A stretch of DNA of 35,733 nt from assembly GCA_024226935.1 (NCBI GenBank), contig JAAELK010000495.1, positions 1-35,733 on the forward strand. Reading direction: 5' to 3'. Below are positions 1 through 23,389 of the stretch, one piece after another. The notes under the pieces were generated by a model. The model ran no database searches. It was not told where the DNA came from and worked only from the letters and a program-made list of their open reading frames with translations. The stretch comes from Desulfobacteraceae bacterium (GTDB lineage Bacteria > Desulfobacterota > Desulfobacteria > Desulfobacterales > Desulfobacteraceae). Each line of letters opens with the position of its first letter. Position 1 is the stretch's first letter. The translations under genes and the position numbers were made by a program.

Positions 1-130
1 AAAGTAGCGACACAATAGCAAAATTTTCTCATGGGTGAGAATGGGCTTCAATGACCCGTCGGAACTCATGAGGAGATTTTGCGGTGAAGCTGAGAAATCT
101 TTTTAGGAAAAGGCGACAACTTGCTTGACA
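1..130. mobile_element. Probable edge of an insertion element that disrupts the neighbouring gene
   Basis: The TPR coding pattern of the neighbouring minus-strand gene stops abruptly near 131-143, and the bases to the left encode nothing recognisable. The segment contains an imperfect inverted repeat (18-33 against 67-82, 14 of 16 bases paired) that could form a hairpin around a 33-nt loop. The outer end reads, on the minus strand, TGTCAAGCAAGTTGTCGCC, which would suit a terminal repeat starting in TG. No transposase is visible because the window starts inside the segment. The element family is unknown; it could also be a simple deletion junction. Confidence 0.33.
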
Positions 131-1175
131 CACACCGATATGGTTTTGCCTCATTATATCGCTGGATATCTATGAGTGAAATAGCCATTGTAAGAGAGTT
201 AATGGAATTAATAAACTTATCACCGGCCTTTAAACATGCTGAGCGTGCAGCATTTATCATGCCGAATCCCTGGGCGGCCCGGCCTATCATTGTGTAACAA
301 TTTCCCAATACAGAATCTGTCATAAGCTGAAAACGGGGAGCGATCAATGGATCACTGCCTGATATTTCTGATTCATACAAATCCACAGCTTCTTTAAAGT
401 ATCCCTGCCAATAATGGAAAAAAGCAGAAAAATTGATGGCAGAAGATTTTAATTTCTTGTCATTTATAGTTTTGGAAATCTCCCACCCCCTGTTAAACAA
501 CTTTATAGCTTCAGGAAAGTTTGATCGATACCACTCATTTTTAGCCATTTGCATCTGGATCAGGGATAGGGATTTTAAATCTTTACGATTTTCAGCTTTT
601 TCTAGAGCCTGATTTAAAATATTCATTATTTTATAAATATTAAATTCAACATCGGAAATTCTGGCATATTTTAGTGAGGTTTCAATAAAAAGTTCGCAGG
701 CCGCAGTTCCTTCTATTCGGGACAGATTATCAAGGACTTTATCAAAGCATTTAATGGAATTTTTAATTTGAAAACAGTGGTTATAGATATCAGCAGCTTT
801 TGCCAGCCATCTGCACTGTTGTAGATCATTTTCACTATCCAGAAGAATATCTGCTAACTGGTCGGCTTTTTCTTCATCATCGGGTAATTCTTTTAAAAAA
901 ATATCTGTGATTTTCTTTTGAAACCCTTTCATTTCCTGGGATGTGAGCTGTTTTTTAAATGATGCTTTAATCTCTTTATCGGAAAAACTAAATTTGCTGA
1001 AATTCATTTTCTCAAGAATTTTATCTTTTGTTGCCTGTTCAAGTATTTCAATCATAACGGAGGGTTTTTCCTCCATAAGCTGAATAAGCCAGTCAATGGA
1101 AAATCCGTTTTTAAAAAGAGAAGCGGCTTTTAGTGTGGATAGGGTAGGTTCGCTGATATTTTTTTCTCTGTTCAT
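66..1175 (-). pseudogene. Truncated winged-helix/TPR signalling protein, 3' end lost
   Basis: The reading frame gives 369 residues. Residues about 15-95 look like the winged-helix segment that follows the ATPase in STAND-type regulators. Residues about 120-335 are helical pairs of TPR type (for example a YWQGYFKEAVDLYE repeat). The last ~25 residues are basic and unlike a TPR, so the natural 3' end is missing and the frame runs into foreign sequence near 131-143. The start at 1175 is supported by AGGGAAA upstream and an in-frame TAA just before it, so no ATPase domain is fused at the N-terminus. It is divergent from the glycyl radical operon, a usual place for a regulator, but I see no DNA-binding motif and no ATP site. 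Regulatory function is inference. It may be a scaffold or an unrelated TPR protein. Confidence 0.6.
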
Positions 1176-1284: not shown

Positions 1285-1350
1285 CTTGGAGCATTGGATT
1301 CAACTCTTGTATTATAGCTAAATATCTGAATTTTATAAGTAAAAACAAGC

Positions 1351-1366
1351 GGCATTAAAATTGCTA
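1351..1366 (+). promoter_or_regulatory. Sigma-54 (-24/-12) promoter of the glycyl radical operon
   Basis: CGGCAT, five bases, then TTGCT matches the RpoN consensus TGGCAC-N5-TTGCA, with the invariant GG and GC dinucleotides exactly 10 bases apart. Transcription would begin near 1377, leaving a leader of about 44 nt before the ATG at 1421, which has a strong AAGAGGTG ribosome site at 1408-1415. Sigma-54 control implies an ATP-driven enhancer-binding protein; none is intact in this window. Confidence 0.6.
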
Positions 1367-1420: not shown

Positions 1421-3832
1421 ATGATTCCATTGATAAATACAGAAGGGATAAGAGAAAAACTTGTAATCAAAGCTGTAAGAAATATTCGTAAAAATTTTAA
1501 AACCAAGGAAGAAGAAGGCGCAAGTATGTACCGGGAAGGTATAAGTCTGGATTTATCAAGATCCCGACTTTTAACCCAGTCATATAAAGAAACCGAAGGA
1601 AAACCCATGGTTCTTAGAAGAGCCTGGGGCCTTGAAAAAATTCTTGAAGGAATGGATTTATATATTCAGGACTGGGAAGTTGTGGTTGGAAGCAATGTAT
1701 CATCCCCTGAAGGTTTGTTTTTTGGGATTGATATGAACTGGAGATCGGTAAAGCGTGTTTGTGATAGTAAGGCAGGAAGAAGTCTTCTTGATGATGAGGG
1801 AAGAAAAGAACTTGCCAAAATGTCTGAATACTGGAATGGAAGAAGTATAAGTGATATTCAGCGTGAAAAATTTTCAGGGGATGTGCTGGATTACTGGAAA
1901 ATGTCAAAAGGCGCACCTGTTACATGGTCTCACTGGTCGCATCTTGGAATTCCTGACTATGAAAAACTTTTTAAATTAGGTGTAAAAGGATTTATAAAAA
2001 AAGCTTGCGATCGCCTTGTGGAACTGGATAAAACTGTTCCCCTTGATTATATTGACCAAAAAGAGTTTCTCCAGGCTGTAATTATAACACTAAAAGCTGT
2101 CATCACATTTGCTAACCGCTATTCAGACCTGGCAAAGAAAAAAGCTGAAGAGACAATAGATCCCACAGATAAAAAGCGACTTGAACATATTGCAAAAGTA
2201 TGTGCAAAGGTTCCAGAGCATCCTCCCAAAACTTTTATTGAAGCGCTCCAATCGTTTTATTTTATACATCTTGCACGAAGCCTTGAGTTCTCTTCATTAG
2301 GAATTGGATTGCGATTTGATAAAATTTTTGGACCATATTTTGATAAAGATGTAAAAGAGGGCAGGATTACAAGAAAAGAAGCAATGATAACTCTTCAGTT
2401 ACTCTGGGTGAAAATTCATGATCTTGGATTAATTTATTCCCCAACACTTTCCTCAATTTATGGTGGAGTGGCTTCCCTCCAGGCCGTTACCCTTGGAGGA
2501 GTTGATGAAAACGCAAATGATGTTACAAATGAGATGTCATACATGGTACTTGAAACTGCAAAATTAATGCAGACTCCAGAACCAACAATCGCATTGCGGT
2601 ATCATGATTATACTCCCCGGGAATTACTCTCTGCTGCAACAGATGTTATTAAAACCGGAGTTGGTTACCCATCGCTTTTTAATGATAAATCCATGATACC
2701 ATTAATGAAAAACTGGGACGTACCCCAGGAACATGCCACAGATTATGCTATCAGTGGTTGTGTTTATCTTGAATTACCAGGAAAAAATATTTCTAATCGT
2801 GCCGTTGGCGGAATTATACTTCCCGGAGCTCTTCTTTATGGGCTAAGTCAAGGAATTAACCCCATGAACGGTGAGCAGATTGGTGCAAAAACACCAGATC
2901 CCAAAACGTTTAAGTCCGTTGATGATGTGATGGACGCATACCTTACCCAGGTTGATTTTTTCTTTAATAAACTATGCACTATTGATAATATATCTAAATC
3001 TTTATATGAAAAATATATACCAAGACCTTTTTATTCAGCATTTCTTGAAGGGTGTATTGAAAAAGGTAAGGATACATCAAGTTGGGGTTATCCATCTGCA
3101 ATCTCTGATATTTGTATTGTTATCGGACCTACTAATGTATCCGATTCAATTACTGCCATTAAGAAAAATGTTTTTGACGATAAAAAAATTACCATGGAAG
3201 AGCTTCTTACAGCAATGGCTCATAACTGGGTAGGTTATGAAGATATACAACAGATGATGATCAATGCTCCAAAATATGGAAATGATGATGATTATGCAGA
3301 TTTTATTGCAGCACAAACCCAGGAAAGAACAGCCAAAGCCATGATGAATTCAACAAACAGATTTGGATACCCATGCCGTGGAGACGGAAGCGGAATTTCC
3401 GGAACTTATGCAGCAGGGTCAATTATGCCTGCAACTCCGGAAGGTCGTAAAGCTGGTGAACCTTTTGCCGATGCAACACTCTCTCCTGTTTTTGGAATGG
3501 ATACAAAAGGGCCCACAGCAGTACTTAAATCAGCATCTAAAATCAACACTACTAAAACACATAACCATCTTATGAATCAAAAATTTCTACCTTCAGCATT
3601 AGAAGGTAACATGAAAGAGGTTTTCATAGATTACATAAGGAGTTGGGGAGATCTGAATATTAACCAGATTCAGTTTAATGTAGTGGATTCAAAAACGTTG
3701 AAAAAAGCTCAGGAAAATCCGGAAGAACATAAAGACTTGTTGGTAAGGGTTGCAGGTTACAGTGCTTATTTTGTTGATCTTTCAAAGGGTCTGCAGGATT
3801 CAATTATTACAAGAACAGCCCAGGGTTTTTAA
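1421..3832 (+). CDS. Glycyl radical enzyme, PFL/dehydratase superfamily, substrate unassigned
   Basis: Cytoplasmic oxygen-sensitive radical enzyme of 803 residues. The C-terminal glycyl radical motif RVAGYSAYF places the radical on Gly779. The thiyl-radical cysteine is Cys447 in SGCVYLELPG. The Cys-Gly spacing of 332 fits the dehydratase/lyase and arylalkylsuccinate-synthase branches rather than pyruvate formate-lyase, which has a Cys-Cys pair. Diol dehydratases, choline lyase, isethionate lyase and hydroxyphenylacetate decarboxylase carry Glu two residues after this Cys (GCxE); here it is Tyr449, so ordinary dehydration chemistry is unlikely. The segment TPEGRKAGEPFADATLSP and the ending DLSKGLQDSIITRT recall the benzylsuccinate-synthase/arylacetate-decarboxylase side, but no BssB/BssC-like small subunit is encoded nearby. 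The stop overlaps the activase start. Family assignment is firm; substrate is unknown. Confidence 0.93.
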   Translation: MIPLINTEGIREKLVIKAVRNIRKNFKTKEEEGASMYREGISLDLSRSRLLTQSYKETEGKPMVLRRAWGLEKILEGMDLYIQDWEVVVGSNVSSPEGLFFGIDMNWRSVKRVCDSKAGRSLLDDEGRKELAKMSEYWNGRSISDIQREKFSGDVLDYWKMSKGAPVTWSHWSHLGIPDYEKLFKLGVKGFIKKACDRLVELDKTVPLDYIDQKEFLQAVIITLKAVITFANRYSDLAKKKAEETIDPTDKKRLEHIAKVCAKVPEHPPKTFIEALQSFYFIHLARSLEFSSLGIGLRFDKIFGPYFDKDVKEGRITRKEAMITLQLLWVKIHDLGLIYSPTLSSIYGGVASLQAVTLGGVDENANDVTNEMSYMVLETAKLMQTPEPTIALRYHDYTPRELLSAATDVIKTGVGYPSLFNDKSMIPLMKNWDVPQEHATDYAISGCVYLELPGKNISNRAVGGIILPGALLYGLSQGINPMNGEQIGAKTPDPKTFKSVDDVMDAYLTQVDFFFNKLCTIDNISKSLYEKYIPRPFYSAFLEGCIEKGKDTSSWGYPSAISDICIVIGPTNVSDSITAIKKNVFDDKKITMEELLTAMAHNWVGYEDIQQMMINAPKYGNDDDYADFIAAQTQERTAKAMMNSTNRFGYPCRGDGSGISGTYAAGSIMPATPEGRKAGEPFADATLSPVFGMDTKGPTAVLKSASKINTTKTHNHLMNQKFLPSALEGNMKEVFIDYIRSWGDLNINQIQFNVVDSKTLKKAQENPEEHKDLLVRVAGYSAYFVDLSKGLQDSIITRTAQGF

Positions 3833-4761
3833 TGAACAAAAATATTAAGGGAATAAAAGAAGAAAGAGGTGTTGTATTTAATATCCAACGGTTCAGCACC
3901 CATGACGGGCCAGGCATCAGAACAACAGTTTTTTTAAAAGGATGTCCTTTAACCTGTTTATGGTGCTCAAATCCTGAATCCCAAAAAGAAAAACCTCAGT
4001 TAATGGTTAGGGATATTAAATGTTCCGGGTGTGGGGCTTGTCTTTCTTCTTGCCCGGAACAGGCAATTTCTTTTTCTAAAAAGAGAAAGCGGATAATAAA
4101 CTGGGAAAAGTGTAATAACTGTTTCTCATGTGTCGATGCCTGTCTTTATAAGGCATTAACAGCCGTGGGTGTTTATAAAAGCGTTGAAGAGATTGTAGAG
4201 GTTGTGGAAAAAGATCGTATCTTTTATGAAAATTCCAAAGGAGGGGTCACATTTTCCGGCGGGGAAGTGCTGACCCAGCACAATTTTCTGGAAAAACTTT
4301 TGATACGATTTAAAGAGGAAGGAATACACAGAACAGTCGATACCACAGGCCTTGCATCATTAAAAGTAGTAAAAAAAATTATTCCACTTACTGACCTTGT
4401 TATGATTGATATTAAACATCTCAACTCAAAAAAGCATAAAGAGGGAACCGGAGTTGGCAACGAACTCATACTTAGTAATCTTGAATACATTGCAAAAAAT
4501 ATTACTACATGGATTCGTCTACCTTTAATTCCAGGCTTTAACGATGATCAAGATCATATTTTAAAAATTGCACAGCTTGCAACCAGGTTAAATGTAGAAA
4601 AGATTTCTCTACTTCCATACCACGAGGGGGGAAGAGCAAAAGCCGCACAGATCGGTGAAACATTTGAACAAGAAGAGATGGAAACACAGTCAGACGAACA
4701 CTTGAAAAGATTGACTGATATTCTATCCAAGAGGGATATTAAAATTACTGTTAGTTCTTAA
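3832..4761 (+). CDS. Glycyl radical enzyme activating enzyme (radical SAM)
   Basis: Activase of 309 residues that uses S-adenosylmethionine and a [4Fe-4S] cluster to put the radical on Gly779 of the preceding enzyme. The radical-SAM triad is Cys38, Cys42 and Cys45 (GCPLTCLWC), preceded by the activase signature RFSTHDGPGIRTTVFLKGC. A ferredoxin-like insert holds two further four-cysteine sets, Cys64/67/70/74 and Cys94/97/100/104, as in activases of dehydratases, decarboxylases and benzylsuccinate synthase but not of PFL. The SAM-binding GGE motif (FSGGEVLTQ) is present. The ATG shares one base with the upstream TAA (TAATG), which suggests translational coupling. Length is normal and all key residues are present. 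Confidence 0.95.
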   Translation: MNKNIKGIKEERGVVFNIQRFSTHDGPGIRTTVFLKGCPLTCLWCSNPESQKEKPQLMVRDIKCSGCGACLSSCPEQAISFSKKRKRIINWEKCNNCFSCVDACLYKALTAVGVYKSVEEIVEVVEKDRIFYENSKGGVTFSGGEVLTQHNFLEKLLIRFKEEGIHRTVDTTGLASLKVVKKIIPLTDLVMIDIKHLNSKKHKEGTGVGNELILSNLEYIAKNITTWIRLPLIPGFNDDQDHILKIAQLATRLNVEKISLLPYHEGGRAKAAQIGETFEQEEMETQSDEHLKRLTDILSKRDIKITVSS

Positions 4762-4858
4762 GAGGCATGGATTATCTTTTTTTGATTTTTAGGCCTTATA
4801 ACTGAATTAAATGACATCAAATCATACCATAATAAATGACGCCAAAAGGAGAACGTTC

Positions 4859-6589
4859 ATGCTTTATGATCAAAAACCATGGATAAAATTCTATGATAAA
4901 ATGGTTACCCAAGAAATTGAAAAGCCTGAATTAAATTATCTTGAATTTCTAAACAGGGGTTTAAAGCATGATCCTGGAAAAATTGCATTTCATTATTTAG
5001 GTTCTTCCTACACTTTTAAAGAGATGGATGAATTATCCACAAAGTTTGCTCTATTTTTGATTCAAAACGGTTATAAAAAAGGTGATGTGGTTGGAATTAA
5101 TCTGCCCAACACACCTCAGTTTTTAATAGCCCTTGCCGGTTCAATACGTGCCGGGTGTATTGTTACCGGGACATCACCACTTTTAACTCCAAAAGAGTTG
5201 ATTCATCAGATTAATGATTCTGGTACAAAAATAATGATAACTCTTGATATACTTTACGAAACAAATTTTGCATCACTACAGGGAAAAGTTCCAGATCTTG
5301 AATCTGTTATTGTAACAAACATTGCAGAATTTATTTCACCGGTTAAGCGTTTTATTGGAAAATTATTAAAAAAAATTCCCGTGGGAAAAACAAATCCTCT
5401 AGAAGGGATGAAGCTTTTTGATTTCAGAAAAATTTTATCAATTAATCTTGAGAAGTTGCCTGAATTAGAAGTTAATATAGACGATACTCTTTTGTATCAA
5501 TATACCGGTGGAACCACCGGCCCGTCTAAGGGAACCATCTTAACCCACAGAAGTGTAATGTCCAATATCAAACAGATTGTTCAATGGTTTGTAAAATCGG
5601 AAAAACCCCTTGAAGATTCAATTAAAACCGCCCTGGGAAAAGATATTTGTTGTTCAGGTTTTCCCATGTACCATGTGGCTGGCATGTCTCAGGGTTTACA
5701 ATATTTAGGCCTTGCCGGCACACAAGTATTAGTACCAGATCCAAGAAATACAGATCAAATTTGCAAGGATCTTAAAAAGTATAAACCACAGGTTCTATTA
5801 AATGTTTCTACCCTCTATCTTTTATTAATGGATAATCCAAAGTTTAAGAAAATTGATTTTTCTGGGTTAATATTTGCACTTTCTGGTGCAGCCCCATTGG
5901 ATGTGCATTCAAACCTGAGACTTGAAAAAATAATTGGAAAAGGAAAAGTGATTGAAGCATTTGGAATGACGGAAGCTGGTCCCATTGCAACCATGAACCC
6001 CTTTGTGGGAAAAAAGAAAACAGGTTCTATTGGAATTCCTGTTCAAAGTACCAAAATTAAAATTGTTGATATGGACACCGGAAAAATTGAGATGGGAGTT
6101 GGAGAACCGGGTGAGTTAATAATTCAAGGTCCACAGATGATGGATGGATATTTTAATAAAAATGAGGCCACAAAAAAAGCAATGCGTGACTCTGGTGATG
6201 GAAAGTGGTTATATACCGGTGATATAGCAAAAATGGATGAAGATGGTTTTATCTATATAGTTGACAGAACAAAAGATATGCTGCTTGTGGGTGGGTATAA
6301 TGTCTATTCAAAAGAGGTTGAAGATACATTGTATGAAATCCCCTCAATTGAGTTGTGTGCTATTGTTGGAAAACCTAACCCCCAAAGACTTGGAAGTGAA
6401 ATAGTAAAAGCTGTAATTCAATTATCAAATGCATTTAAAGATAACAGCAAGGATACCCTTGAAGAAGAAATAACAAAATATTGCAGACAAAATTTAGCAC
6501 CATATAAAATTCCAAAAATCTTTGAATTTCAAGAGAAAATACCTCTGACTCCTGTGGGCAAGGTTGATAAGAAATTGTTGAGGAAGTGA
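4859..6589 (+). CDS. AMP-forming acyl/aryl-CoA ligase
   Basis: A 576-residue ANL-superfamily ligase that would activate a carboxylic acid to its CoA thioester through an acyl-adenylate. It shows the P-loop-like motif YTGGTTGPSKGTILTH, the adenylate motif FGMTEAG, the hinge region YTGDIAKMDEDGF, the GYNVYSKEVED segment and the C-terminal catalytic lysine in TPVGKVDKK. It resembles long-chain or FadD-type ligases more than benzoate-CoA ligase. An in-frame ATG at 4811 has no ribosome site, whereas the ATG at 4859 is preceded by AAAAGGAGA at 4844-4852; I therefore take 4859. It lies about 100 nt after the activase with no terminator between, so it is probably in the same sigma-54 operon and may activate the product or substrate of the radical enzyme. 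The substrate is unknown. Confidence 0.9.
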   Translation: MLYDQKPWIKFYDKMVTQEIEKPELNYLEFLNRGLKHDPGKIAFHYLGSSYTFKEMDELSTKFALFLIQNGYKKGDVVGINLPNTPQFLIALAGSIRAGCIVTGTSPLLTPKELIHQINDSGTKIMITLDILYETNFASLQGKVPDLESVIVTNIAEFISPVKRFIGKLLKKIPVGKTNPLEGMKLFDFRKILSINLEKLPELEVNIDDTLLYQYTGGTTGPSKGTILTHRSVMSNIKQIVQWFVKSEKPLEDSIKTALGKDICCSGFPMYHVAGMSQGLQYLGLAGTQVLVPDPRNTDQICKDLKKYKPQVLLNVSTLYLLLMDNPKFKKIDFSGLIFALSGAAPLDVHSNLRLEKIIGKGKVIEAFGMTEAGPIATMNPFVGKKKTGSIGIPVQSTKIKIVDMDTGKIEMGVGEPGELIIQGPQMMDGYFNKNEATKKAMRDSGDGKWLYTGDIAKMDEDGFIYIVDRTKDMLLVGGYNVYSKEVEDTLYEIPSIELCAIVGKPNPQRLGSEIVKAVIQLSNAFKDNSKDTLEEEITKYCRQNLAPYKIPKIFEFQEKIPLTPVGKVDKKLLRK

Positions 6590-6878: not shown

Positions 6879-8405
6879 TTAGTGATTTAAATCAGATTGG
6901 ATATTATTTTCATAAAAGTGGCAGTCATCACCTTTACAGGTCTTAAAATTATTAAGTGTTTTAGAATATTGTTTTTCCATTAAGGGTGGAAGTTGATCAT
7001 AAAAGTTATTTAACTGATATTTGTCTAAATTAATATCATAATACTCGATGGCATCTTTTATTTCAGTTGCCTCGGTATAGGACCCATTTATATCAGTTTC
7101 ACCGTTAATTATCTTATGCTCTTTTCCATAATTAACATATAGACTGTTTTCGTTTGGTGTTAATGTTCTTAATGCCTGAAATTCAGGAATAATATCCAAT
7201 GCTTCAAGTCCAGTCGCTTCTTGATAAAATCTCACGAGAAATCGTTTACGTGGAAAACTTTTAAGGCTGGTATCTCCATTTGTCGTACTAAACAAAGGAA
7301 CCATTGATTGCCCGTCGGTTTCCCGAAGTGGTACCACACTAGCCATATCTGCAATAGTTACAGCCAAATCATTGTTCAGAACCAGGGCATCTGAAGTTTT
7401 ACCCTTTAATGATTCATCGGTATTTGGGACGGCAATTACCAATGGCACTCTGATAGCTTCTTCATAGGGGGCACCTTTTTGTGTTAATCCAAATTCACCC
7501 ATATAAAATCCATTATCCGATAAAAAAACAATTACTGTATCATCGTAGAGTCCTTTTTTTTCAAGGGCGTTAACAACATTGCCAACCATTTTGTCGATGC
7601 CGCGCATATTTGAATATCTTGATTTATAGTAATTATTAATACCCTTATAGTAAAGATTAACATGTTCTGTATCAATATTATCCGTGATCCACGTAGATTT
7701 TCCATCTATTTTGAAGAAATTTTCTTTTCTAACAAGATCAGGGGATTCATTAAGGGGGAAGTCTGGATAAGGTTGAAGTGTAGCGGCATATGTTAATGAA
7801 TAAGGTATTGGTCGTCCAAAGCCATCTCCGGGTTGATAGGGCATATTAGTATGTGGTGCTGTCGGTGCCATATAAAGGAAAAAAGGTTTATTGGATTCCA
7901 CTTGGTTTTCAATAAAGTCGATGCCTTTTTCAGCAATAAAATCAGTTTGAAAAAGGGTATTTTGTTCAGGGTCCGGGATTGAACCGTCATTATCAATATA
8001 AGTGTACTCGGTCATTTTATATGAAGAATGGCCGAATAATGCAACCCAGTAATCCCATCCTTCGGGTTTAGCTGGGTCTGCCGCATAGGCATTCAGATAT
8101 TTACCAACTAAGCCAGTTGTATAGTTCTTTTCTTTCAGCCAATTTTGTAGAAATGTTTTGTCTCCGTCTTGGCCGGTTGGATCATTGGGATAAATAAGTT
8201 CATAACCCTGGGTTATATTTGTTATGCCATGATTTTGTACATATTGCCCCGTCAGAAAAGTAGCTCTGGACGGACAGCAAATTGCATCTGTGGCGAAGAA
8301 ATTAGAAAATTGAATTCCTCTATTTACAATGTGCTTATCAATATTAGGTAATTTTTTATTTTTAAGCATTAATTGAAATAGATTAAGGTCTAAATCGTCT
8401 ATCAT
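6879..8405 (-). CDS. Sulfatase (formylglycine type), export signal out of frame
   Basis: Hydrolase of the arylsulfatase family that cleaves sulfate esters. The open part has 508 residues. The formylglycine motif CxPSR is present as CCPSRATFLTG (Cys43 in this frame, modified by FGE or an anaerobic sulfatase-maturating enzyme). Metal-binding parts are visible as MIDDLD at the start and FLSDNGFYMGEFGL. The frame continues upstream of 8405 without a stop (residues ...TPNFTAINNKSPNFLVF) to a hydrophobic stretch. A signal peptide with an AYA/Q cleavage site, an ATG at 8542 and a strong GGAGGA site would complete it, but a run of 12 A (T on the coding strand) at 8509-8520 puts the ATG out of frame. 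The ATG at 8405 has no ribosome site, so the intended gene is 6879-8542 with a frameshift. Substrate is unknown. It lies alone, convergent with the radical-enzyme operon. Confidence 0.85.
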   Translation of the reverse strand: MIDDLDLNLFQLMLKNKKLPNIDKHIVNRGIQFSNFFATDAICCPSRATFLTGQYVQNHGITNITQGYELIYPNDPTGQDGDKTFLQNWLKEKNYTTGLVGKYLNAYAADPAKPEGWDYWVALFGHSSYKMTEYTYIDNDGSIPDPEQNTLFQTDFIAEKGIDFIENQVESNKPFFLYMAPTAPHTNMPYQPGDGFGRPIPYSLTYAATLQPYPDFPLNESPDLVRKENFFKIDGKSTWITDNIDTEHVNLYYKGINNYYKSRYSNMRGIDKMVGNVVNALEKKGLYDDTVIVFLSDNGFYMGEFGLTQKGAPYEEAIRVPLVIAVPNTDESLKGKTSDALVLNNDLAVTIADMASVVPLRETDGQSMVPLFSTTNGDTSLKSFPRKRFLVRFYQEATGLEALDIIPEFQALRTLTPNENSLYVNYGKEHKIINGETDINGSYTEATEIKDAIEYYDINLDKYQLNNFYDQLPPLMEKQYSKTLNNFKTCKGDDCHFYENNIQSDLNH

Positions 8406-9076: not shown

Positions 9077-10063
9077 ATGAATAAAAGATATCCGGTACTT
9101 TTGTTGATCGCCGTACTGATTATTCTATCATCCAGCGTTTATGCAGAAAAAACTTTGCGTATCAGCCTCCAATTACCCCTGAAAAATCCCATAGGTCAAA
9201 ACCTGCTAAAATTTCAAAAGGAGGTGGAAAGAAAAAGCAATGGTTCCCTGAAGATTGAAATATACCCGTCTGCACAGCTCTATAAAGACAAAGAGATCCC
9301 CCAGGCCGTGTCTTTTGGAGCCGTTGCCATGGGGGTTGCTTCTTTGACCCTTTTTGCCGGAACCATTCCGGCGGTGGATCTTTTTTATATACCTTTTTTA
9401 TTTGACAGCCCCCAAAAAGTCCTCAAGGCAACAGCCCCCCAAAGCAATATCCGCAAAGCCCTGGACAAAGCAATTCTTGCCACAGGAACACGTGTTCTCT
9501 GGTGGCAGGCCTATGGGAATGTCATTCTTTTAAGCAAAAGAATCATCATCAGAACCCCAGGGGACATGAAGGGAAAAAAGGTAAGGGTTTTTGGCAGAAC
9601 AACAGGTGATACCGTCACAGCTTTAGGGGGAGCCCCCATCATGTTGTCCGGCTCCAAACAGTTTCTTGCCTACCAGCGGGGTATGATTGATGCCGGAATG
9701 ACCGGAATAACTACGGTAAAATCGAGAAAATTATACGAAGTCATGGATTATATGACCCTGACCCGCAATGCCAATGTTGAATTTATTGTCCTTATCAATG
9801 AAAAGATCTGGCAGCAACTGAGCAACACACAAAGAGATATCATAACCAGGGCCGGGCTTCGGGCGGAAAAAGAACTTCGGAAAAAAACACAGGCCATCGA
9901 ACAACAAGCTCTGGAATGGGTGAGTGACAAGATAAAAATAATTAACTTAACAGATGATCAGCGTAAAAACTGGCGCAAGGCAACAACACCCGTGCTCATA
10001 GATTTTCAAAAAAGGGCTGGTGAACTTGGCAGACAACTCGTTATGGAAGCTCAAAATTTATAG
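9077..10063 (+). CDS. dctP: TRAP transporter periplasmic solute-binding protein
   Basis: Extracytoplasmic binding protein (328 residues) of a tripartite ATP-independent periplasmic transporter, which couples uptake of an organic acid to a sodium or proton gradient. The N-terminus is a classic Sec signal (MNKRYPVLLLIAVLIILSSS, cleavage after VYA, about residue 23). The family pattern is present: SLQLPLKNPIG near the start, GDMKGKKVRVFG with the arginine that usually salt-bridges the substrate carboxylate, and the AYQRGMIDAG block after it. The likely ribosome site is AAGGAC before the ATG. A 13-nt palindrome GCAATAAAATTGC (9026-9038) in front could be an operator. dctQ and dctM follow on the same strand. 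Substrate cannot be told from sequence; a C4-dicarboxylate or another carboxylate is likely. Confidence 0.93.
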   Translation: MNKRYPVLLLIAVLIILSSSVYAEKTLRISLQLPLKNPIGQNLLKFQKEVERKSNGSLKIEIYPSAQLYKDKEIPQAVSFGAVAMGVASLTLFAGTIPAVDLFYIPFLFDSPQKVLKATAPQSNIRKALDKAILATGTRVLWWQAYGNVILLSKRIIIRTPGDMKGKKVRVFGRTTGDTVTALGGAPIMLSGSKQFLAYQRGMIDAGMTGITTVKSRKLYEVMDYMTLTRNANVEFIVLINEKIWQQLSNTQRDIITRAGLRAEKELRKKTQAIEQQALEWVSDKIKIINLTDDQRKNWRKATTPVLIDFQKRAGELGRQLVMEAQNL

Positions 10064-10149
10064 TTCTTTCAAACAGCTTTAGATACTCTTATTGGCAATA
10101 ATTATGAACTGTCTGGACAGGCCCGGTGTCCCCAGGGGAGATGTACCAT

Positions 10150-10656
10150 ATGATCCACATAATAGACAAAATCACTGAGATGGCTGCCCATATTGCAGCC
10201 TGGATTATTTTCACCATAGGTATCATAATAACCTACGAAGTTATAATGCGTAAATTTTTTAATTCCCCCACCATATGGGTTGATGAAACAGCCAGATTTT
10301 TTCTGGTATGGGCAGTTTATATGGCAACCCCACATATGTTAAAACTGAGAAATATGATAATCGTAAATCTTTTCCCAGGTTCCCTTTCCGGAATGATATT
10401 CAAATTATTGGAATTTTTGACACTCTCAGTAATCGCCTTTTTTTCCTTTGTAGCACTATATTATGGTGGAGAAATAGTCCTCGAGTCCATAGAAACAGGC
10501 AGAAAGACATCAACCATGCTCGAAGTACCAGAATGGCTCACCCAAAGTGCTATCCCTGTGGGTTTTGGTTTGCTCTTTATCCAGACAATTGTCGAGTTTC
10601 TAAAGCTGATTTACAACAAAGGTCCAACCATCAAAAAGAAGAGGACACCGGTATGA
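10150..10656 (+). CDS. dctQ: TRAP transporter small permease subunit
   Basis: Integral membrane subunit of about 168 residues with four predicted transmembrane helices. They start near AHIAAWIIFTIGIIITYEVI, then FFLVWAVYMA, then LTLSVIAFFSFVALYYG, and finally a helix around IPVGFGLLFIQTIVEFL. The family signature VDETARFFLVW is present after the first helix. A GTG at 10126 and an ATG at 10141 are possible starts, but the AGGGGAG at 10134-10140 sits at the proper distance (9 nt) only for the ATG at 10150, which I use. The stop overlaps the dctM start (ATGA), showing translational coupling. It pairs with DctM in the membrane complex served by the DctP protein just upstream. Confidence 0.9.
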   Translation: MIHIIDKITEMAAHIAAWIIFTIGIIITYEVIMRKFFNSPTIWVDETARFFLVWAVYMATPHMLKLRNMIIVNLFPGSLSGMIFKLLEFLTLSVIAFFSFVALYYGGEIVLESIETGRKTSTMLEVPEWLTQSAIPVGFGLLFIQTIVEFLKLIYNKGPTIKKKRTPV

Positions 10657-11924
10657 CCACAATTTTCATTCTTATTTTTCTTCTCCTGCTTTTATTTCTC
10701 CGGATTCCAGTCGCCTTCTGTCTTGGTGGGCTTGGCCTATTTCTGCTGATCCTGAAGGGCTTTCCTCCGGTGATTGTTCCCTTTTGTCTTTTCAGTTCCA
10801 TAGACAGCTTTGTCCTGATAGCAGTACCCTTATTTCTTCTCATGTCCAACATTCTTCTAAAGGGAGATATCAGCAAAGACCTGTTTACTGCAATCCAGAG
10901 TTGGGTAGGACATTGGCCGGGGGGACTTGGTGTGGCAACTGTCATCAGTTGTGCAATTTTTGCCGCAATTTCCGGCTCTTCTGTGGCAACGGCAGCGACA
11001 ATCGGCACGGTTGCAATTTCCGAGATGACACAACGTGGCTACAATCGTCCCTTTGTCCTTGGCCTCATGGCGGCAGGAGGAACACTGGGCATACTGATTC
11101 CACCGTCGATCCCCATGATTATCTATGGGGTGATAACAGAAGAGTCCATTGTTGATCTTTTCCTTGCTGGAATTGGTCCCGGTATTTTTCTGGCCTGTCT
11201 TTTTATTGGTTTTTGTTTTCTTTATGCCAAATTCGGCAAAGGATACGAGCCTATGGAAAAAGCATCCTGGAAGGAACGCCGGGACACAACCCTGCTCATT
11301 ATTCCCACCATTTTTATAGCAGCGGTTGTGATCGGAGGTATTTATGCCGGATGGTTTACCCCCACAGAATCCGCCGGTATAGGATTCTCCCTGGCACTGA
11401 TTCTTGTCTTTGCCATGGGGCGAATGACCCTGATTAAATTAAAGGAAGCCGTCCACAATGCCATGGAAACAACGGTGACCATTTTCCTGATCATTGCTGG
11501 AGCAAAGCTGTTTGGCAAGGCCATCACCCTCTATCGTATTCCCCAGGAAATTTCAGGAATAGTTACTGCCAATATCCTGGAACCCGGATTCTTTATCCTG
11601 ATAATCTGCCTGGTTCTACTCATAATGGGTCTTTTTCTGGAATCTCTTTCCATGCTGCTCATCATGATACCGGTACTCTATCCGTCCCTTGCCGGGTTGG
11701 GAATTGATCCCATATGGTTTGGAGTAATGTTTGTTATCATGATTGAATGTGCATTAATCACCCCCCCTGTAGGCCTCAATCTTTTTGTTATCCAGGCAGT
11801 TGCCAACGCTCCTCTTTCCGATGTAATCAAGGGGGTCTGGCCATTTATTTTAATCATGCTGGCTACAATACTATTTTTATGGTTTTTCCCCGGCCTGGCA
11901 ACTTTTATTCCCTACAAATTGTAA
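10653..11924 (+). CDS. dctM: TRAP transporter large permease subunit
   Basis: The transport-channel subunit of the TRAP system, 423 residues, the normal length, with about a dozen hydrophobic helices. Recognisable family blocks are the N-terminal FLRIPVAFCLGGLGLF, the AAISGSSVATAATIGTVAI segment, AAGGTLGILIPPSIPMIIYG, and near the end ECALITPPVGLNLFVIQ, which are the conserved IPPS and TPPVG elements. A longer open frame extends upstream inside dctQ, but the ATG at 10653, overlapping the dctQ stop as ATGA and preceded by AAGAGGA, is the real start. No clear terminator follows in the 180 bp before the histidine kinase gene, so read-through into it is possible. Confidence 0.94.
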   Translation: MTTIFILIFLLLLLFLRIPVAFCLGGLGLFLLILKGFPPVIVPFCLFSSIDSFVLIAVPLFLLMSNILLKGDISKDLFTAIQSWVGHWPGGLGVATVISCAIFAAISGSSVATAATIGTVAISEMTQRGYNRPFVLGLMAAGGTLGILIPPSIPMIIYGVITEESIVDLFLAGIGPGIFLACLFIGFCFLYAKFGKGYEPMEKASWKERRDTTLLIIPTIFIAAVVIGGIYAGWFTPTESAGIGFSLALILVFAMGRMTLIKLKEAVHNAMETTVTIFLIIAGAKLFGKAITLYRIPQEISGIVTANILEPGFFILIICLVLLIMGLFLESLSMLLIMIPVLYPSLAGLGIDPIWFGVMFVIMIECALITPPVGLNLFVIQAVANAPLSDVIKGVWPFILIMLATILFLWFFPGLATFIPYKL

Positions 11925-12106
11925 CCTGCAAAACCTCAACCGCCTGCATACCCCACCCAAAAAGCTAAAAACCACTATTGCCAGCCTTGATCACTCCCAT
12001 GGTGATTCATAACATTGACAATCAGGTTGTACACTTAAATATTTTTATGGCGAATTCGTCTGGGATCTGATAGTTTTAAAAAAAAATCAAATAAAATCGG
12101 TTGCCA

Positions 12107-13915
12107 ATGAATTTTAAAAAAAGAATCACAAACTTTTTTGAATTACCCCATCCATCAGGGGAAAACAAAATAGATTATTTCCGTCAACGCCTTTTATTTT
12201 ACCTGCTTTTGGGCTTTGCCATCTTTGGCTTTCTTGCCTACCTGCCCAGTATCTATTTTTCTTTTGTTTTAAAATTTCATGGGATTGCCTTCCTGGACAC
12301 CCTCGTCCTTGGGATGGTATTTTTATTATTGTTTAACAAAAAAATCTCTTTTTTCTATAAAGCCCTAGGGCTGCTCTCCATATTTTATATTCTTGGCCTT
12401 GGACTACTCATCGTTTTGGGCCCCACCGGGGCTGGTTTTCTATGGCTGCTCATGTTTTCGGTTATGACCGGAGTCCTGCTGGGGGTCTCTGCCTCTTTGA
12501 TCTCCCTGGGAATCAACCTTATCACCCTGATCGTACTGACTCTGCTTATCCAAACCCGGGGATTACTCTGGATGGAGACCCAACCCAATGCCTGGGCCAT
12601 CTGGATTGTAGTCGGAGTAAATTTTATTTGTATCAATGCAGTCGCCGCCAGTTCCGTTGCTTTTCTCATCGACAAAATCGCCCGGATGCTCCAGGACGAA
12701 AAACAGGGACGCATCAAACTGGAAAGTGAAATCAAGAGCCGAATCCAGGCGGAAAAAGACAACAAGGAACTGCTCCGTCTGCTCCATCATTCCCAAAAGA
12801 TGGAGGCCCTGGGTACCCTGGCAAGTGGAGTGGCACATGATTTCAATAATATCCTGAGCGCCATCCTCGGATATGCCGAACTTTCCCTGCTGGACATGGA
12901 CAATACCCACCCGGCCCACAAAAACCTTGAACACATCTGCCAGGCCAGTGAACGGGCCAAGTCAATTGTCCACCAAATTCTGACCTTCAGCCGTCAGGCC
13001 CCTTCCAATAAAGAGGCCTGCGATCTTAATCAAATTATTTTAGAATGTATCACCTTTTTTAAAATCGGTATCCCCAACACCATTCAGGTGACCGCCAACA
13101 TCCCTGATACCCCACTTTCCGTCCATGTTGACAAAACAAAAATTTACCAGGTTATCATGAACCTGCTGACCAACAGCATGCACGCCATTGAATTAGATTA
13201 TGATAAGGAAAATAGGATTATTTCCCTCGGGGCTCAATTATTTTCCATTGAGCCTGATACCTATGAATCCATGGTTCTGGAACCGGGGGACTATATAAAA
13301 CTTACGGTGGAAGATACGGGTTGCGGCATTCAAAAAAAAGAGATTCATAAAATTTTTGAACCCTATTTCACCACAAAAGAAACAGGCAAAGGAACAGGCA
13401 TGGGATTATCCATTGCCCACGGCATCATCCGGGCCCATGGTGGAGAAATCATGGTATCAAGTGTACCTGGTAAGGGAAGTTGCTTCATGATCTACCTGCC
13501 TTGTCACGGACCTCTGAAGAATATGGTCAAACCACCAAAAAAAGAGATAGATCTGAAGGGGAGTGAAACTATTCTCTTTATTGATGACGAAAAAGAACTG
13601 GTTGAGATTCAAATCCAATTTTTGGAAAAATTCGGATACCGAGTCATAGGCTTCACCGATCCTCTGGAAGCAAAGTATCAATTTGAGAAAGACCCTGATT
13701 TTTTTGATCTCATAATCACCGACAACAAAATGCCGGACATGACCGGCGACCGCTTGACCGCTGAAATCAAAAAAATAAACCCTCGCATTCCCGTAATTCT
13801 CTGTTCTGGATTTGTGGATTCAGCTGATGACAGCCTTTTTAATGCAGTCCTGACAAAACCTGTCGCCGGCCGTGTACTGGCAGAAAACATCCGAAGAGTG
13901 GTGGACAAATCCTAA
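12107..13915 (+). CDS. Membrane-bound hybrid histidine kinase with receiver domain
   Basis: Sensor kinase of 602 residues. Residues about 25-190 form roughly six transmembrane helices with short loops and no large periplasmic sensor domain. A short coiled segment leads to the HisKA domain with His244 in GVAHDFNNILSAILGYAEL. The ATPase domain (about 290-410) has the N box (NLLTNSMHAI), the G1 box (VEDTGCGI) and the G2 box (GKGTGMGLSIAHG). The C-terminal receiver (about 485-600) has the acidic pair FIDDEKEL and the phospho-acceptor Asp539 in ITDNKMPDMTG. No separate response regulator or DNA-binding output lies nearby. The ATG at 12107 is preferred over the TTG two codons upstream; neither has a strong ribosome site. 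It follows the TRAP genes on the same strand, so a role in sensing the transported compound is plausible but unproven. Confidence 0.9.
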   Translation: MNFKKRITNFFELPHPSGENKIDYFRQRLLFYLLLGFAIFGFLAYLPSIYFSFVLKFHGIAFLDTLVLGMVFLLLFNKKISFFYKALGLLSIFYILGLGLLIVLGPTGAGFLWLLMFSVMTGVLLGVSASLISLGINLITLIVLTLLIQTRGLLWMETQPNAWAIWIVVGVNFICINAVAASSVAFLIDKIARMLQDEKQGRIKLESEIKSRIQAEKDNKELLRLLHHSQKMEALGTLASGVAHDFNNILSAILGYAELSLLDMDNTHPAHKNLEHICQASERAKSIVHQILTFSRQAPSNKEACDLNQIILECITFFKIGIPNTIQVTANIPDTPLSVHVDKTKIYQVIMNLLTNSMHAIELDYDKENRIISLGAQLFSIEPDTYESMVLEPGDYIKLTVEDTGCGIQKKEIHKIFEPYFTTKETGKGTGMGLSIAHGIIRAHGGEIMVSSVPGKGSCFMIYLPCHGPLKNMVKPPKKEIDLKGSETILFIDDEKELVEIQIQFLEKFGYRVIGFTDPLEAKYQFEKDPDFFDLIITDNKMPDMTGDRLTAEIKKINPRIPVILCSGFVDSADDSLFNAVLTKPVAGRVLAENIRRVVDKS

Positions 13916-13937: not shown

Positions 13938-14741
13938 CTAAAGCCTGATCATTTCTCCTGGCTGATCCGGTCCTGCCACATACAGAGCAATATCGGATCC
14001 ATTGAGACCTTTGGCCACTTCAATGGCGGCTTTTTTGGGACAATTGTTCTCCTCACTCAAATGGGCAAGAATCACATGTTGCAATGTCGGGTTTAAATCC
14101 GAATTCAGATCCTGATCCAATATTTCTGTAAGAAGTTGCCTGGTATCCATGTTGGACAAATGCCCAGTCCTTGACTTGACCCGCTGTTTTAAAAACCAGG
14201 GATAAGACCCGTTGATCAGCATCTCAGGATCATGGTTGGATTCAATATAAAGCAGATGACAATTTTTCAAATGCTCTTTGACAAGCCCTGTGGCGTGGCC
14301 AAGATCGGTGGCGATACCAATTTTACTTTCCCCAAAAGAAAGGGTCAGCCCAGCAGGGTCCTGGGCATCATGGGAAATTGAAAAAGGGACCACCTGCAAC
14401 TGGTCAATGGAAAAAGCGGTACCGCATTCAAAAAAATTGAGCAGTTCAACTTTACCCAGATTATTACAGGCGTTAAAAGTTTGGGGAGTAATATAGACAG
14501 GGATATTGAACCTGCGGCTCAATATCCCTGCCCCTCTCACATGATCGGAATGCTCATGGGTGATGATGATGGCAGAAAGCTGTTCCGGTGTTTGCCCCAC
14601 CTGGGTGAGGCGTCTCTGAATTTCTATACCGGAGAGTCCTGCATCAATCAATACGGAAGTTTCCGGAGAGGAAACAAACACAGAGTTCCCCTTGCTACCA
14701 CTGGCAAGGGGACAGATACAAAATCCTTTATTTTTCTTCAT
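13938..14741 (-). CDS. Metallo-beta-lactamase-fold hydrolase, WalJ/YycJ type
   Basis: A 267-residue cytoplasmic metallohydrolase. The N-terminal LASGSKGNS block and the metal motif THEHSDH are typical of the WalJ (YycJ) branch, which includes DNA-directed 5' exonucleases. Further metal ligands are probably the Asp of IGIATDLGH and the His of ESNHDPEML and [12 protein letters not shown]. The start overlaps the 3' end of pnp by 14 nt, so it is cotranscribed with, and probably translationally coupled to, polynucleotide phosphorylase. It is the last gene of the long minus-strand cluster, ending 22 bp from the convergent histidine kinase. Fold and branch are clear; the in vivo substrate is not. 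Confidence 0.85.
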
Positions 14742-16818
14742 CTTTTTTAGCTGCTTTGTAACTCAGCTTGACTTTGCCATCCCGTGTAATGTCCAAGACC
14801 TTTACAGAAATAATTTCACCTTCCTTGACAACATCGGTAACCTTTTTGACCCGATGTTCAGCCAATTCTGAAATATGAACAAGACCATCGGTTCCAGGCT
14901 TAATATTAACAAAAGCACCAAAATCTGTAATTTTTACGACTTCACCATCATAGATGGCACCGATTTCAGGATCCATGGCAATATCAGAAACCATCTTGAT
15001 TGCCTTATCGGCATCTTCCTGGTTTTCAGCAGCAATTTTTACAATACCTGAATCATCCACTTCAAGCACGGTGTTGGTTTCCGTCTGAATGGCACGGATC
15101 ACCTTGCCGCCAGGTCCGATGATGTCTCTGATCTTATCTTTATTGATCTGAACACTCACAATTTTTGGAGCAAGGGGAGACAGATTCTCCCTTGTTTTAT
15201 CAATGGTTTTCAACATTTCATCCAGGATATGGAGCCGTCCGCCCCGGGCCTGATTCAAAGCTGTTTCCATTATATCTTTGGACAACTCTTTGATCTTGAT
15301 ATCCATCTGAAGAGCGGTAATACCTTCGGTGGTACCAGCTACCTTGAAATCCATATCTCCAAAATGATCTTCATCACCCAGAATATCGGACAGGATAACG
15401 GTTTTTTCCCCATCTTTTACAAGACCCATTGCAATCCCGGAAACAGGAGCCTTAATCGGCACCCCGCCATCCATGAGGGCCAGAGTACCAGAGCAAACTG
15501 TTCCCATGGAAGAACTACCATTGGATTCCATGACCTCTCCTACAAGACGAATGGTATACTCAAAATCTTCTACGGAGGGAAGAACCCTTGCCAGAGCCCG
15601 GTGGGCCAGGTCTCCGTGGCCAATATCCCTACGACTGGGACCACCAGCACGACGTACTTCACCCACTGAAAAAGGAGGGAAATTATAATGGAGCATGAAA
15701 GCCCGGGTGGTATCCCCATTATTCAAGGTTTCAATGCGTTGCTCATCTCTACCGGAACCCAGGGTCAAAACGCCCAGCACCTGGGTTTCACCCCGGGTAA
15801 AAAGAGCTGAACCATGGAGCCTTGGCAGACAACCAGCTTCACAGACAATGGAACGAATCTCATCAAAAGACCTACCGTCAATACGCTTGTCTTCCTTGAG
15901 AACAATGTCCCGGCTGACAGACTTGACAGTCTTGCCGAAGGCCTCTTTGATCTCATCGATCCCTTCGGGATATTTCTCACAAAAATGAGCCACTACCTCT
16001 TCTTTTAAAAGGCTTAAAGCATTGGCACGTTCAATCTTTGTTTTGATCTGAACCTTTTCATGAATTTTAGGGGCGGCAAAGGCGATCACTTCTTCTGCCA
16101 ATACCTCATCCTTTACAGGAGGAGTAAAAACTCTTTTTTCTTTTCCAAGGAGATTTTTCAGTTCCACCTGGATATCGATCAAGGGCTGCATGGATGTGTG
16201 ACCAAAAAAGATGGCATCCAGCATATCTTTTTCAGATACAACATCTGCCCCGCCTTCCACCATTACCACACCGGTTTTAGAACCGGCAACGGTAAGATCT
16301 ATATCGCTTTGCTCCATCTGCTCGGGAGTAGGATTAGCAATAAACTGTCCATCAACCCGGCCCACTTTAATACCGGCAATCGGGCCGTTAAAGGGGATAT
16401 CAGATATTTCAAGGGCAGCCGAAGCACCCACCATGGCCAAGACCCCGGGATCGCAAAGTTTATCCGTTGACAAAACCGTGGCAATCACCTGGGTTTCAAA
16501 ATTATAACCCGCCTCAAACAAGGGTCTGATGGGACGATCAATCATCCTGGCTCTCAAAGTTTCATTTTCCGAAGGCCGGCCTATTTCCCGTCTGAAATAA
16601 TTTCCCGGGATTCTGCCTGCGGCATAAATCCGCTCCTGATATTCTACCGTCAGGGGCAAAAAGCTGATTTCCTTAGGGGTCTTTGAAGCCACGGCAGTAA
16701 CAATTACCCTGGTTTCTCCATACTGGACAATAACCGATCCAGATGCTTGTTTTGCAATCTTACCGGTGGTGATGGAAAATTCTTTTCCACCGACAATTGT
16801 TGTTCTAGTTTGTTCCAT
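14728..16818 (-). CDS. pnp: Polyribonucleotide nucleotidyltransferase (PNPase)
   Basis: Phosphorolytic 3'-5' exoribonuclease of 696 residues that forms a trimer and degrades mRNA, releasing nucleoside diphosphates. Domain order is standard: a first RNase PH core (about 10-230), an all-helical linker, a second RNase PH core (about 310-540, with [14 protein letters not shown] and the phosphate-site [16 protein letters not shown]), a KH domain with IGPGGK near residue 565, and a C-terminal S1 domain ([15 protein letters not shown] onward). The ATG at 16818 follows a good TAGGAGAAATT site. Its leader carries the conserved two-hairpin repeat at 16829-16918, which may affect expression; in enterobacteria the pnp leader hairpin is an RNase III target used for autoregulation. 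Confidence 0.98.
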
Positions 16819-16828
16819 AATTTCTCCT

Positions 16829-16918
16829 AATAACCGCCATGGGCGGAACAGGGATTTTTACCCTTGATTCCGCCCATAACAAAATTTGGAACTCTTTTTT
16901 AATATCGAGAGTTCCATA
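16829..16918 (-). repeat. Two-hairpin intergenic element, copy 1 (pnp leader)
   Basis: A 57-bp block (16829-16885) is about 85% identical to 32685-32741. It contains a hairpin with a perfect outer stem, ATGGGCGGAA (16839-16848) with TTCCGCCCAT (16868-16877). Beside it is a second hairpin, TGGAACTC (16887-16894) with GAGTTCCA (16909-16916). At the equivalent place the other copy has an unrelated stem sequence that still pairs, so structure is kept while sequence changes. This copy ends 10 bp before the pnp ATG. Confidence 0.75.
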
Positions 16919-16965
16919 TAAATAAAAAAGGCGGAGACTTTGAGATACCTTAAAAATAATAAACC

Positions 16966-17008
16966 CGCATCTTTACAATCAAACATAAAGCTTGATAACA
17001 AAGATGCG
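16966..17008 (-). other. Additional stem-loop in the rpsO-pnp interval
   Basis: CGCATCTTT (16966-16974) pairs perfectly with AAAGATGCG (17000-17008), and the inner part continues with wobble and Watson-Crick pairs. The rpsO-pnp interval (16819-17134, 316 bp) holds no gene. It contains this stem-loop, the two-hairpin element at 16829-16918 and the terminator at 17084-17122. Confidence 0.6.
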
Positions 17009-17083
17009 AACTTATTCAAAAGCATCCCAAATGGTCGCCGCCCACAATTAAACATACAATGTATAAAAAAATAATTGATAAAT

Positions 17084-17122
17084 AAAAAACCGATTTTTGA
17101 CACATAGACAGCCAAAAACCGG
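17084..17122 (-). terminator. Intrinsic terminator after rpsO
   Basis: Directly after the rpsO stop, CCGGTTTTTG and CAAAAATCGG (minus strand) form a 10-bp stem with one G-U pair, followed by TTTTTTATTT. It should end most rpsO transcripts or attenuate read-through to pnp. Confidence 0.65.
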
Positions 17123-17134
17123 TTAATAGTCATT

Positions 17135-17404
17135 CTACCTTCTAAGTCCGAGTCTTTCGATCAAAGAACGGTATCTGTTTATGTCTTTTTTCTTCACATA
17201 GTCCAAAAGACTTCTGCGCCTTCCAACTAAAATCAAAAGACCCCGTCTTGAATGATGATCTTTTTTATGAATTTTAAGATGTTCAGTAAGATAACTGATG
17301 CGGTGGGTTAAAATTGCCACCTGCACTTCGGGTGAGCCTGTATCGGACTCATGGAGTTTAAAACCTTCGATCATTTCTTCTTTATTTTCTGCTAATAAAA
17401 CCAC
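17135..17404 (-). CDS. rpsO: Small ribosomal subunit protein S15
   Basis: Primary 16S rRNA-binding protein of the 30S platform, 89 residues, the usual size. It has the family blocks [35 protein letters not shown] and [17 protein letters not shown]. The frame is open upstream to 17449, but the GTG at 17404 is preceded by AAGGAG at the right distance and gives the standard N-terminus ([15 protein letters not shown]), so GTG is the start. S15 commonly represses its own mRNA through a structure around the start. pnp follows 316 bp downstream, the classical rpsO-pnp pair. Confidence 0.97.
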
Positions 17405-17556
17405 TTTCGTACTCCTTTGTCTGGAATAAATAAAACATGGTATAAACATTGATCTCTTTTTTCATACCTTTTATCCGATATTCCATTCAGAAAAAAAAGG
17501 GGTGCAAACAGATCAAAATACCATTACAAATACATATAACCTTACATAATTATCAA

Positions 17557-18471: not shown

Positions 18472-18494
18472 TTAAAGCTGACCCCAAAAAATAG

Positions 18495-18914: not shown

Positions 18915-18920
18915 TTTTAC

Positions 18921-23372: not shown

Positions 23373-23389
23373 GTTAAGCGTTCTCCATA

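Follow-up and report, generated by a model that had tools for sequence, protein, structure and literature searches.

The window analysed here, 35,733 nucleotides of DNA from a Desulfobacteraceae bacterium (contig JAAELK010000495.1, assembly GCA_024226935.1), encodes at positions 1421..3832 of the + strand an oxygen-sensitive, 803-residue glycyl radical enzyme (GRE) that reads Cys-Val-Tyr (CVY) at its thiyl cysteine. Our sequence comparisons give good support to a clade, marked by a DG[S/T] signature and made up of this CVY subclade with CMRW, CMQP and other uncharacterised relatives, that is sister to the X-succinate synthases (XSS), which are the benzylsuccinate (BSS) and alkylsuccinate (ASS) synthases. 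The XSS serve anaerobic bacteria in coupling oil hydrocarbons to fumarate. We tentatively suggest that the window enzyme is a single-subunit, C-C bond-forming radical enzyme that might couple its substrate to fumarate or another acid of that kind, giving a product that would be activated with coenzyme A (CoA) and degraded. The intact GRE frame, the activase, the clade and its conserved residues are shown here, and no BssC was found; the reaction is inferred.

The window protein is a member of the GRE superfamily: a PFL-like domain (Pfam, 544 bits), Cys447, the Gly779 loop and a cognate radical SAM activase are all present. Residues 446-456 read G-C447-V448-Y449-L-E451-L-P-G-K455-N456 (codons 447-449 at 2759..2767, +), Tyr449 taking the place of the Glu of eliminases and the Ser of XSS, and the radical loop RVAG779YSAYF (Gly779 codon at 3755..3757, +; Gly_radical, 92.9 bits) is intact. 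The activase, a radical SAM enzyme that also has Fe-S domains of ferredoxin type, is encoded at 3832..4761 (+); its frame overlaps the stop codon of the GRE by the single base 3832, and it scores 347 bits against the GRE-activating subfamily TIGR02494 (cut-off 174). The CVY motif, the intact radical loop and the matching adjacent activase had all been proposed in a first-pass annotation of the window, and each holds.

Phylogenetic placement and the residue at Cys+2

Reference XSS rows were recognised by their scores, L007 matching TutD/BssA with 1031 bits and L124 matching MasD with 1478 bits, both reading CMSP (loci and genomes carry our own L and G numbers). A FastTree analysis of 101 rows (22 of the 123 aligned rows being omitted as short, or more than 82% identical to a kept row) united the wider clade of the window enzyme with the XSS at a support of 97. 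With a mixture model in IQ-TREE, run on 45 rows and 737 columns from which the Cys-loop and DG[S/T] columns had been removed, support was 100/100 for XSS plus clade, 100/99 for XSS alone and 100/100 for the clade alone, the window enzyme falling not inside the BSS and ASS clade but as sister to it. Three of 48 rows (HPAD, which is 4-hydroxyphenylacetate decarboxylase, and two other long rows) were omitted from this set, and L123 also from the XSS-subset trees, where the grouping of XSS and clade stood at 99 without ASS and at 100 without BSS. Rooting on E. coli PflB/TdcE, with the motif columns kept, gave 99. Approximately unbiased (AU) tests, which share the tree model's pull between long branches, rejected forcing the clade together with HpsG/CutC/PFL2-3 (p-AU 1.8e-8) or with the HypD group (p-AU 2.75e-6). 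HPAD lay outside the window clade in our trees, its exact place being unsure on a long branch. The trees cover GREs of the phylum; of the families that the first-pass annotation had listed for comparison, they include BSS/ASS, HPAD, CutC and HypD rows. Separately, a gene at L180:9368 (+), reading GCVCPN and carrying DGS, formed a deep lineage that resolved with neither XSS nor the clade in the PFL-rooted tree, and is possibly an intermediate branch.

That the branch is uncharacterised, as had been supposed, is borne out by the profile searches: the window GRE stays under every NCBIfam equivalog cut-off matched, its best-matching solved structure is 1r8w (458 bits), and 9rco, a solved ‘Glycyl radical protein’ of unstated function, scores 390 bits. 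The window family is thus apparently unstudied within the GRE superfamily, and the parts of the open-access literature returned by our searches hold no description of the window clade.

The first-pass annotation had called the active site non-canonical on the ground that characterised dehydratases, choline lyase, isethionate lyase and HPAD place Glu at Cys+2. This is so for eliminases and HPAD: Glu stands there in the structures solved for glycerol dehydratase, CutC and isethionate lyase, and in 56 of the 123 rows, including those that NCBIfam names HypD, CutC, HpsG and HPAD. The reference set had, however, left out the XSS, which read CMS at the thiyl loop in 11 of 11 rows, and PFL itself, which reads ACCVS. 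Glu at Cys+2 is absent from all 11 XSS rows and from the 49 rows of the window clade; the label was therefore too narrowly based, and the missing Glu is no anomaly, since the XSS lack it likewise.

We sampled relatives from 389 genomes of the order and 395 of the phylum, scoring the top two candidates per genome, so that paralogues are undercounted. Among 58 genomes of the genus, family and order (its own included) the best other match was a partial gene at 39% identity; the order and phylum samples gave full-length relatives at up to 68%. C-V-Y occurs in 30 of the 123 aligned GRE rows, drawn from 19 numbered genomes (the window's own included) and two named contigs, and this recurrence excludes a chance motif. 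All 28 rows with at least 48% identity read C-V-Y; at 45-47% there are two C-V-Y rows (L043, L080) and two C-I-Q rows (L074, L075), and below 45% none of the aligned rows has C-V-Y. A narrow pattern scan of genome contigs, to which our coverage outside the phylum is limited, gave three close loci; the viral contigs searched held no relatives, and all 46 matching plasmid records were below 60% identity, the best listed being 33%. As an observation apart, the NNCMQP subclade (L091, L092, L169-L178) is well conserved across several genera of the phylum, with some copies near MeaB, B12-binding, hydratase or carboxyltransferase genes, and may be the easiest member of the clade for pathway assignment.

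Active site, subunits and gene neighbourhoods

In BSS and in (1-methyl)alkylsuccinate synthase (MASS), according to excerpts of PMC12358834, the Cys-loop backbone binds one carboxylate of fumarate, Arg508 (BSS) or Arg492 (MASS) holds the other, and BSS Gln707 or MASS Glu690 also contacts it. Counted from Cys493/Cys477, both of these Arg residues stand at Cys+15. The window clade favours a different position: Arg occurs at Cys+13 (Arg460 in the window; codon 2798..2800, +) in 28/30 CVY and 14/19 sister rows, that is 42/49 of the clade, making it a candidate carboxylate anchor, and by position we guess that Arg460 may replace the fumarate Arg of the XSS. The column of BSS Gln707 and MASS Glu690 is Ser or Thr within the DG[S/T] signature (Asp655-Gly656-Ser657 in the window, with Ser657 in that column; codons at 3383..3391, +), found in 28/30 CVY and 18/19 sister rows (46/49 of the clade); the two CVY rows without it are L063, which is cut ahead of the site, and L080, which is frameshifted. 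None of the 74 other rows has DG[S/T], one of these being a clade copy truncated short of the site, and 11 of 12 later-fetched loci (L169-L178, L180) carry it, L179 not doing so. Lys at Cys+8 is invariant (30/30 CVY rows; 49/49 clade rows). Cys+4, Glu451 in the window, is Glu in 25/30 CVY rows and otherwise Asp, Gln or Asn, and Cys+2 in the sister rows is R, Q, V, K, I, W or Y.

Excerpts of the same paper describe the XSS with known structures (BSS and MASS) as multi-subunit complexes. PF08201, the model for the BssC/TutF gamma subunit, had no match in the source genome, which is 95% complete. The model matched next to the BSS of G023, both ASS of G100 (placed in the same order as the source genome) and, in G464, four of its five full ASS; the only match in G045 stayed below cut-off and lies where the BssB model also matches. 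No match adjoined the CVY genes of either G100 or G464. The BssB/TutG model PF18512 likewise had no source-genome match, and decides nothing, as it matched one of six genomes and missed three that carry BSS or ASS (G023, G100, G171). Among 205 small same-strand open reading frames (ORFs) within 1.5 kb of the GREs in the 25 CVY loci there were six matching pairs, four of them among ORFs of the window, L054 and L055 that lie inside regulator stretches in other frames, the others joining a window ORF with L065, and L060 with L133 (35 residues). None was widely recurrent in these loci and none was recognised as BssB or BssC, which, with the lack of a BssC match, suggests that the window enzyme probably works as a single subunit. 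It is not a member of the XSS: it falls outside the BSS and ASS clade, has no BssC match, lacks CMSP, and has a gap where the XSS carry the Arg of Cys+15, for which the Arg at Cys+13 may or may not stand in.

Gene contexts were compared across 25 CVY loci (365 kb), 31 sister loci (461 kb), 10 XSS loci (184 kb) and 20 Glu-type control loci (378 kb; from G464, G100, G171, G160, G001 and G048, 20/20 reading Glu at Cys+2), in stretches of 3-22 kb that mostly reach about 10 kb to either side. L056 (a duplicate of L053), L080 (a frameshifted copy) and loci with short flanks were omitted, and L061 and L063, near-identical cut copies from one genome, were counted as two. Genes for acyl-CoA dehydrogenase, hydratase or hydroxyacyl-CoA dehydrogenase occurred in 8/25 CVY, 13/31 sister, 3/10 XSS and 1/20 Glu-type loci, and B12 mutase, B12-binding or MeaB genes in 0/25, 6/31, 4/10 and 0/20 respectively. 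L062 has the order hydratase-ligase-GRE-activase with a dehydrogenase upstream; in L082 a pair of mutase genes and a gene for a B12-binding protein share one region with the GRE and two ligases; and L078 has GRE (a broken copy)-mutase-B12 protein. Other arrangements are loose; in L055 the activase is separated from the acyl-CoA genes by genes for arginine decarboxylase and agmatinase. According to parts of PMC6776118, alkane degradation proceeds from the fumarate adduct through a CoA ligase and a mutase (assK, mcmLS), and toluene degradation through a dehydrogenase and a hydratase (bbsG, bbsH).

Two other candidates for a shared context were rejected. AMP-forming ligases are found in 5/25 CVY, 2/31 sister, 3/10 XSS and 3/20 Glu-type loci, and although a ligase next to the GRE recurs, the five from CVY loci share 25-29% identity across lineages, reaching 66% only where both genomes belong to the same genus, so that a conserved ligase partner was discarded as evidence, the ligases not being orthologous and being of similar frequency near Glu-type GREs; the source genome has 27 AMP-binding matches. 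A TRAP transporter was likewise discarded as a clade feature because of low counts in all locus groups (CVY 2/25, sister 2/31, XSS 0/10, Glu-type 1/20). Transporters of this family are present in the window and in L090, where DctP and DctM homologues directly precede a sister GRE, and parts of PMC6776118 report a C4-dicarboxylate (TRAP) transporter near fumarate-addition operons of JS1.

Proposed reaction and its rivals

In the reaction that we propose, the activase would put a radical on Gly779, leading to a thiyl radical on Cys447, and lack of Glu at Cys+2 would mean no Glu-assisted elimination of the kind seen in dehydratases. As happens in BSS and MASS, the Cys447 thiyl could instead abstract hydrogen from an organic substrate, and the resulting carbon radical would then add to fumarate, or to an unsaturated acid like it, at the double bond. 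The Cys-loop backbone may bind one carboxylate and Arg460 the other, Ser657/Asp655 serving instead of Gln707/Glu690. The substituted succinate product would become a CoA thioester, in the window perhaps via the adjacent ligase, and might be degraded by acyl-CoA dehydrogenase, hydratase and, in the sister subclades, a B12 mutase. With a little more reserve we suggest that the clade as a whole might stand beside BSS and ASS as a large third branch of enzymes that carry out fumarate-type radical addition, each a single subunit with its activase and with an anchor of its own (the Cys+13 Arg and DG[S/T]), which would have spread and multiplied in the phylum with Cys+2 tuned to the substrate.

Several observations weigh against fumarate addition by the window enzyme. 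Raw similarity ranks dehydratases above XSS (458 bits to 1r8w, 359 to TutD), and the best NCBIfam match is an HpsG model, at 538 of the 1000 bits needed; we read these scores as the result of fast change in the XSS, and the BSS and ASS stems measure about 0.8 changes per column in IQ-TREE. The column of the XSS fumarate Arg (Cys+15) is a gap in the window, and Arg at Cys+13 is missing in 2/30 CVY and 5/19 sister rows. BSS and MASS work with small subunits, and none was found for the window enzyme. An AlphaFold2 model built from five sequences (window, L051, L052 and two from L053, the Desulfatibacillum alkenivorans DSM 16219 record) was poor, with mean pLDDT 51, pTM 0.46 and the Cys and Gly loops unresolved, and we drew no inference from it. 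In the neighbourhoods, 17/25 CVY loci show none of the acyl-CoA dehydrogenase, hydratase and hydroxyacyl-CoA dehydrogenase genes, none of the 25 has a mutase gene, and AMP ligases are about as frequent near Glu-type GREs as near CVY genes. One-sided Fisher tests against the Glu-type loci (acyl-CoA genes, p 0.027 for CVY and 0.004 for both clade groups; mutase-type genes, p 0.041 for sister loci) are guides only, because the loci are related.

The tree and gene contexts behind fumarate addition would serve identically for a C-C bond-forming or -breaking radical enzyme that does without fumarate, using another unsaturated acid or fragmenting a branched acid, and feeding beta-oxidation. By alignment, the side chains that contact fumarate in BSS and MASS (as given in excerpts of PMC12358834) differ here, and the varied Cys+2 of the sister rows suggests diverse substrates; yet nothing found points positively to any particular acceptor, and the B12-mutase-type genes in 6/31 sister and 4/10 XSS loci fit succinate-type products, so we hold this version to be unlikely, if the most serious of the rivals. 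The first-pass annotation had offered C-C bond formation, which fits the tree, together with a decarboxylase, which as an enzyme of HPAD or IAD type is disfavoured because both retain Glu beside the thiyl Cys (parts of PMC6181972; L003 of the source genome reads GCLE). It had also suggested an aromatic or hydrophobic acid as the substrate, and nothing that we found favours an aromatic one in particular.

Decarboxylation of arylacetate-like acids might still proceed in the manner of PhdB, whose mechanism, by the account in parts of PMC7670169, is thought to be unlike that of HPAD, with hydrogen abstraction at the methylene, so that the missing Glu need not exclude such an enzyme, and a CoA ligase for acids does adjoin the GRE-activase pair. 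However, besides the Glu of HPAD and IAD, HPAD lies outside the clade on a long branch, and decarboxylation has no need of dehydrogenase and hydratase neighbours; we judge it improbable. Scarcely better placed is an eliminase or dehydratase whose catalytic base has moved, for example to Glu451 or Asp655. The top raw similarities to glycerol dehydratase and HpsG speak for it, as does the presence of Asp655 in all 28 CVY rows with a readable site. Against it, Cys+4 is Asp, Gln or Asn in 5/30 CVY rows, so that Glu451 is no invariant base, and is Glu in 0/19 sister rows, and the AU test rejected grouping with the two dehydratase groups.

Surrounding genes, host genome and known systems

An AMP-forming, FadD-like acyl-CoA ligase (4811..6589, +) starts about 50 bp after the activase gene and may have a role in the pathway. 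Before the GRE, CGGCATTAAAATTGCTA at 1350..1366 (+) is a possible sigma-54 (-24/-12) promoter by consensus match only; similar elements, again consensus matches only, precede the GRE copies in L054, L055 and L059, and no convincing one was seen ahead of either L053 copy. Upstream of the GRE a divergent gene (66..1175, -), ending near the contig edge, encodes a TPR-type protein. Across 336 residues this protein is 51% identical to the first, N-terminal third of a regulator encoded beside the L055 copy; that regulator, the only protein of its cluster scanned, has sigma-54 activator and GAF domains. The window's regulator stretch is about one third the length of this L055 relative, its frame ending near the contig edge through a stop or an assembly fault. 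Beyond the ligase lie an antisense sulfatase-family gene (6879-8405); TRAP transporter genes DctP-DctQ-DctM, of a C4-dicarboxylate-type family (9077-11924, +), 2.5 kb after the ligase; a hybrid sensor histidine kinase with a MASE11 membrane domain and a receiver domain (12101-13915, +), proteins of whose BLAST cluster also lie near the L051 and L057 GRE copies; and a housekeeping block (14728-27603, -) including pnp, truB, infB, nusA, pheT and pheS.

The source assembly (6.09 Mb, 590 contigs) carries a strong dsrA match (596 bits, cut-off 393), on which account the bacterium is probably a sulfate reducer. It has three full PFL-like matches, with neither AssA nor BssA among them, and a fourth that is weak and partial. 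Besides its HPAD (L003, 1436 bits) it encodes a second GRE of Glu type, for which a search at a strict threshold gave no curated family. Other genomes are richer in GREs: five have 8-12 PFL-like matches each, G464 has 26 if pieces are counted, and G594 gave 31 first-look candidates, two of them scored.

If the clade is indeed a stand-alone sister family of the XSS, radical C-C bond formation would become easier to study and use, and routes of anaerobic degradation that searches with BssA/AssA markers miss could be added. Even with a non-fumarate acceptor, the sister position would fix where GRE evolution lost or replaced the Glu at Cys+2, and it points to Tyr449, Arg460, Asp655 and Ser657 as residues of interest.

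Among known systems, the alpha subunit of BSS (BssA/TutD; PDB 4pkc) resembles the window protein as a GRE of the sister clade with no Glu at Cys+2 and a radical SAM activase, but identity to the BSS rows is about 32%, BSS reads CMSP and the window CVYL, the BSS Arg at Cys+15 and Gln707 are replaced, and BssB and BssC were not found here. AssA/MasD (PDB 9o8u; D. alkenivorans copies L124 and L126) is equally of the sister clade, and shares B12-mutase company with the window's sister subclades; identity is 30-32%, in G100 and G464 a BssC-type subunit stands beside most ASS and beside no CVY genes, and CVY loci have no mutase. Glycerol dehydratase of the PFL2-3 type (1r8w), HpsG, CutC and HypD give the highest raw scores and have Lys or Arg at Cys+8, but they carry Glu where the window has Tyr449, and the tree rejects their grouping with the clade. 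The HPAD and IAD decarboxylases are GREs with activases, and HPAD occurs in the same genome, but they keep Glu beside the thiyl Cys, and HPAD falls outside the window clade; PhdB is alike in being a GRE, with a mechanism thought to differ from that of HPAD. Two further divergent fumarate-addition enzymes appear in the portions of the literature that we drew on: limonenylsuccinate synthase, which lies inside the BSS branch, and a branch in JS1 Atribacteria, with faeB/faeC subunits, that is about 55% identical to a BssA (PMC6776118).

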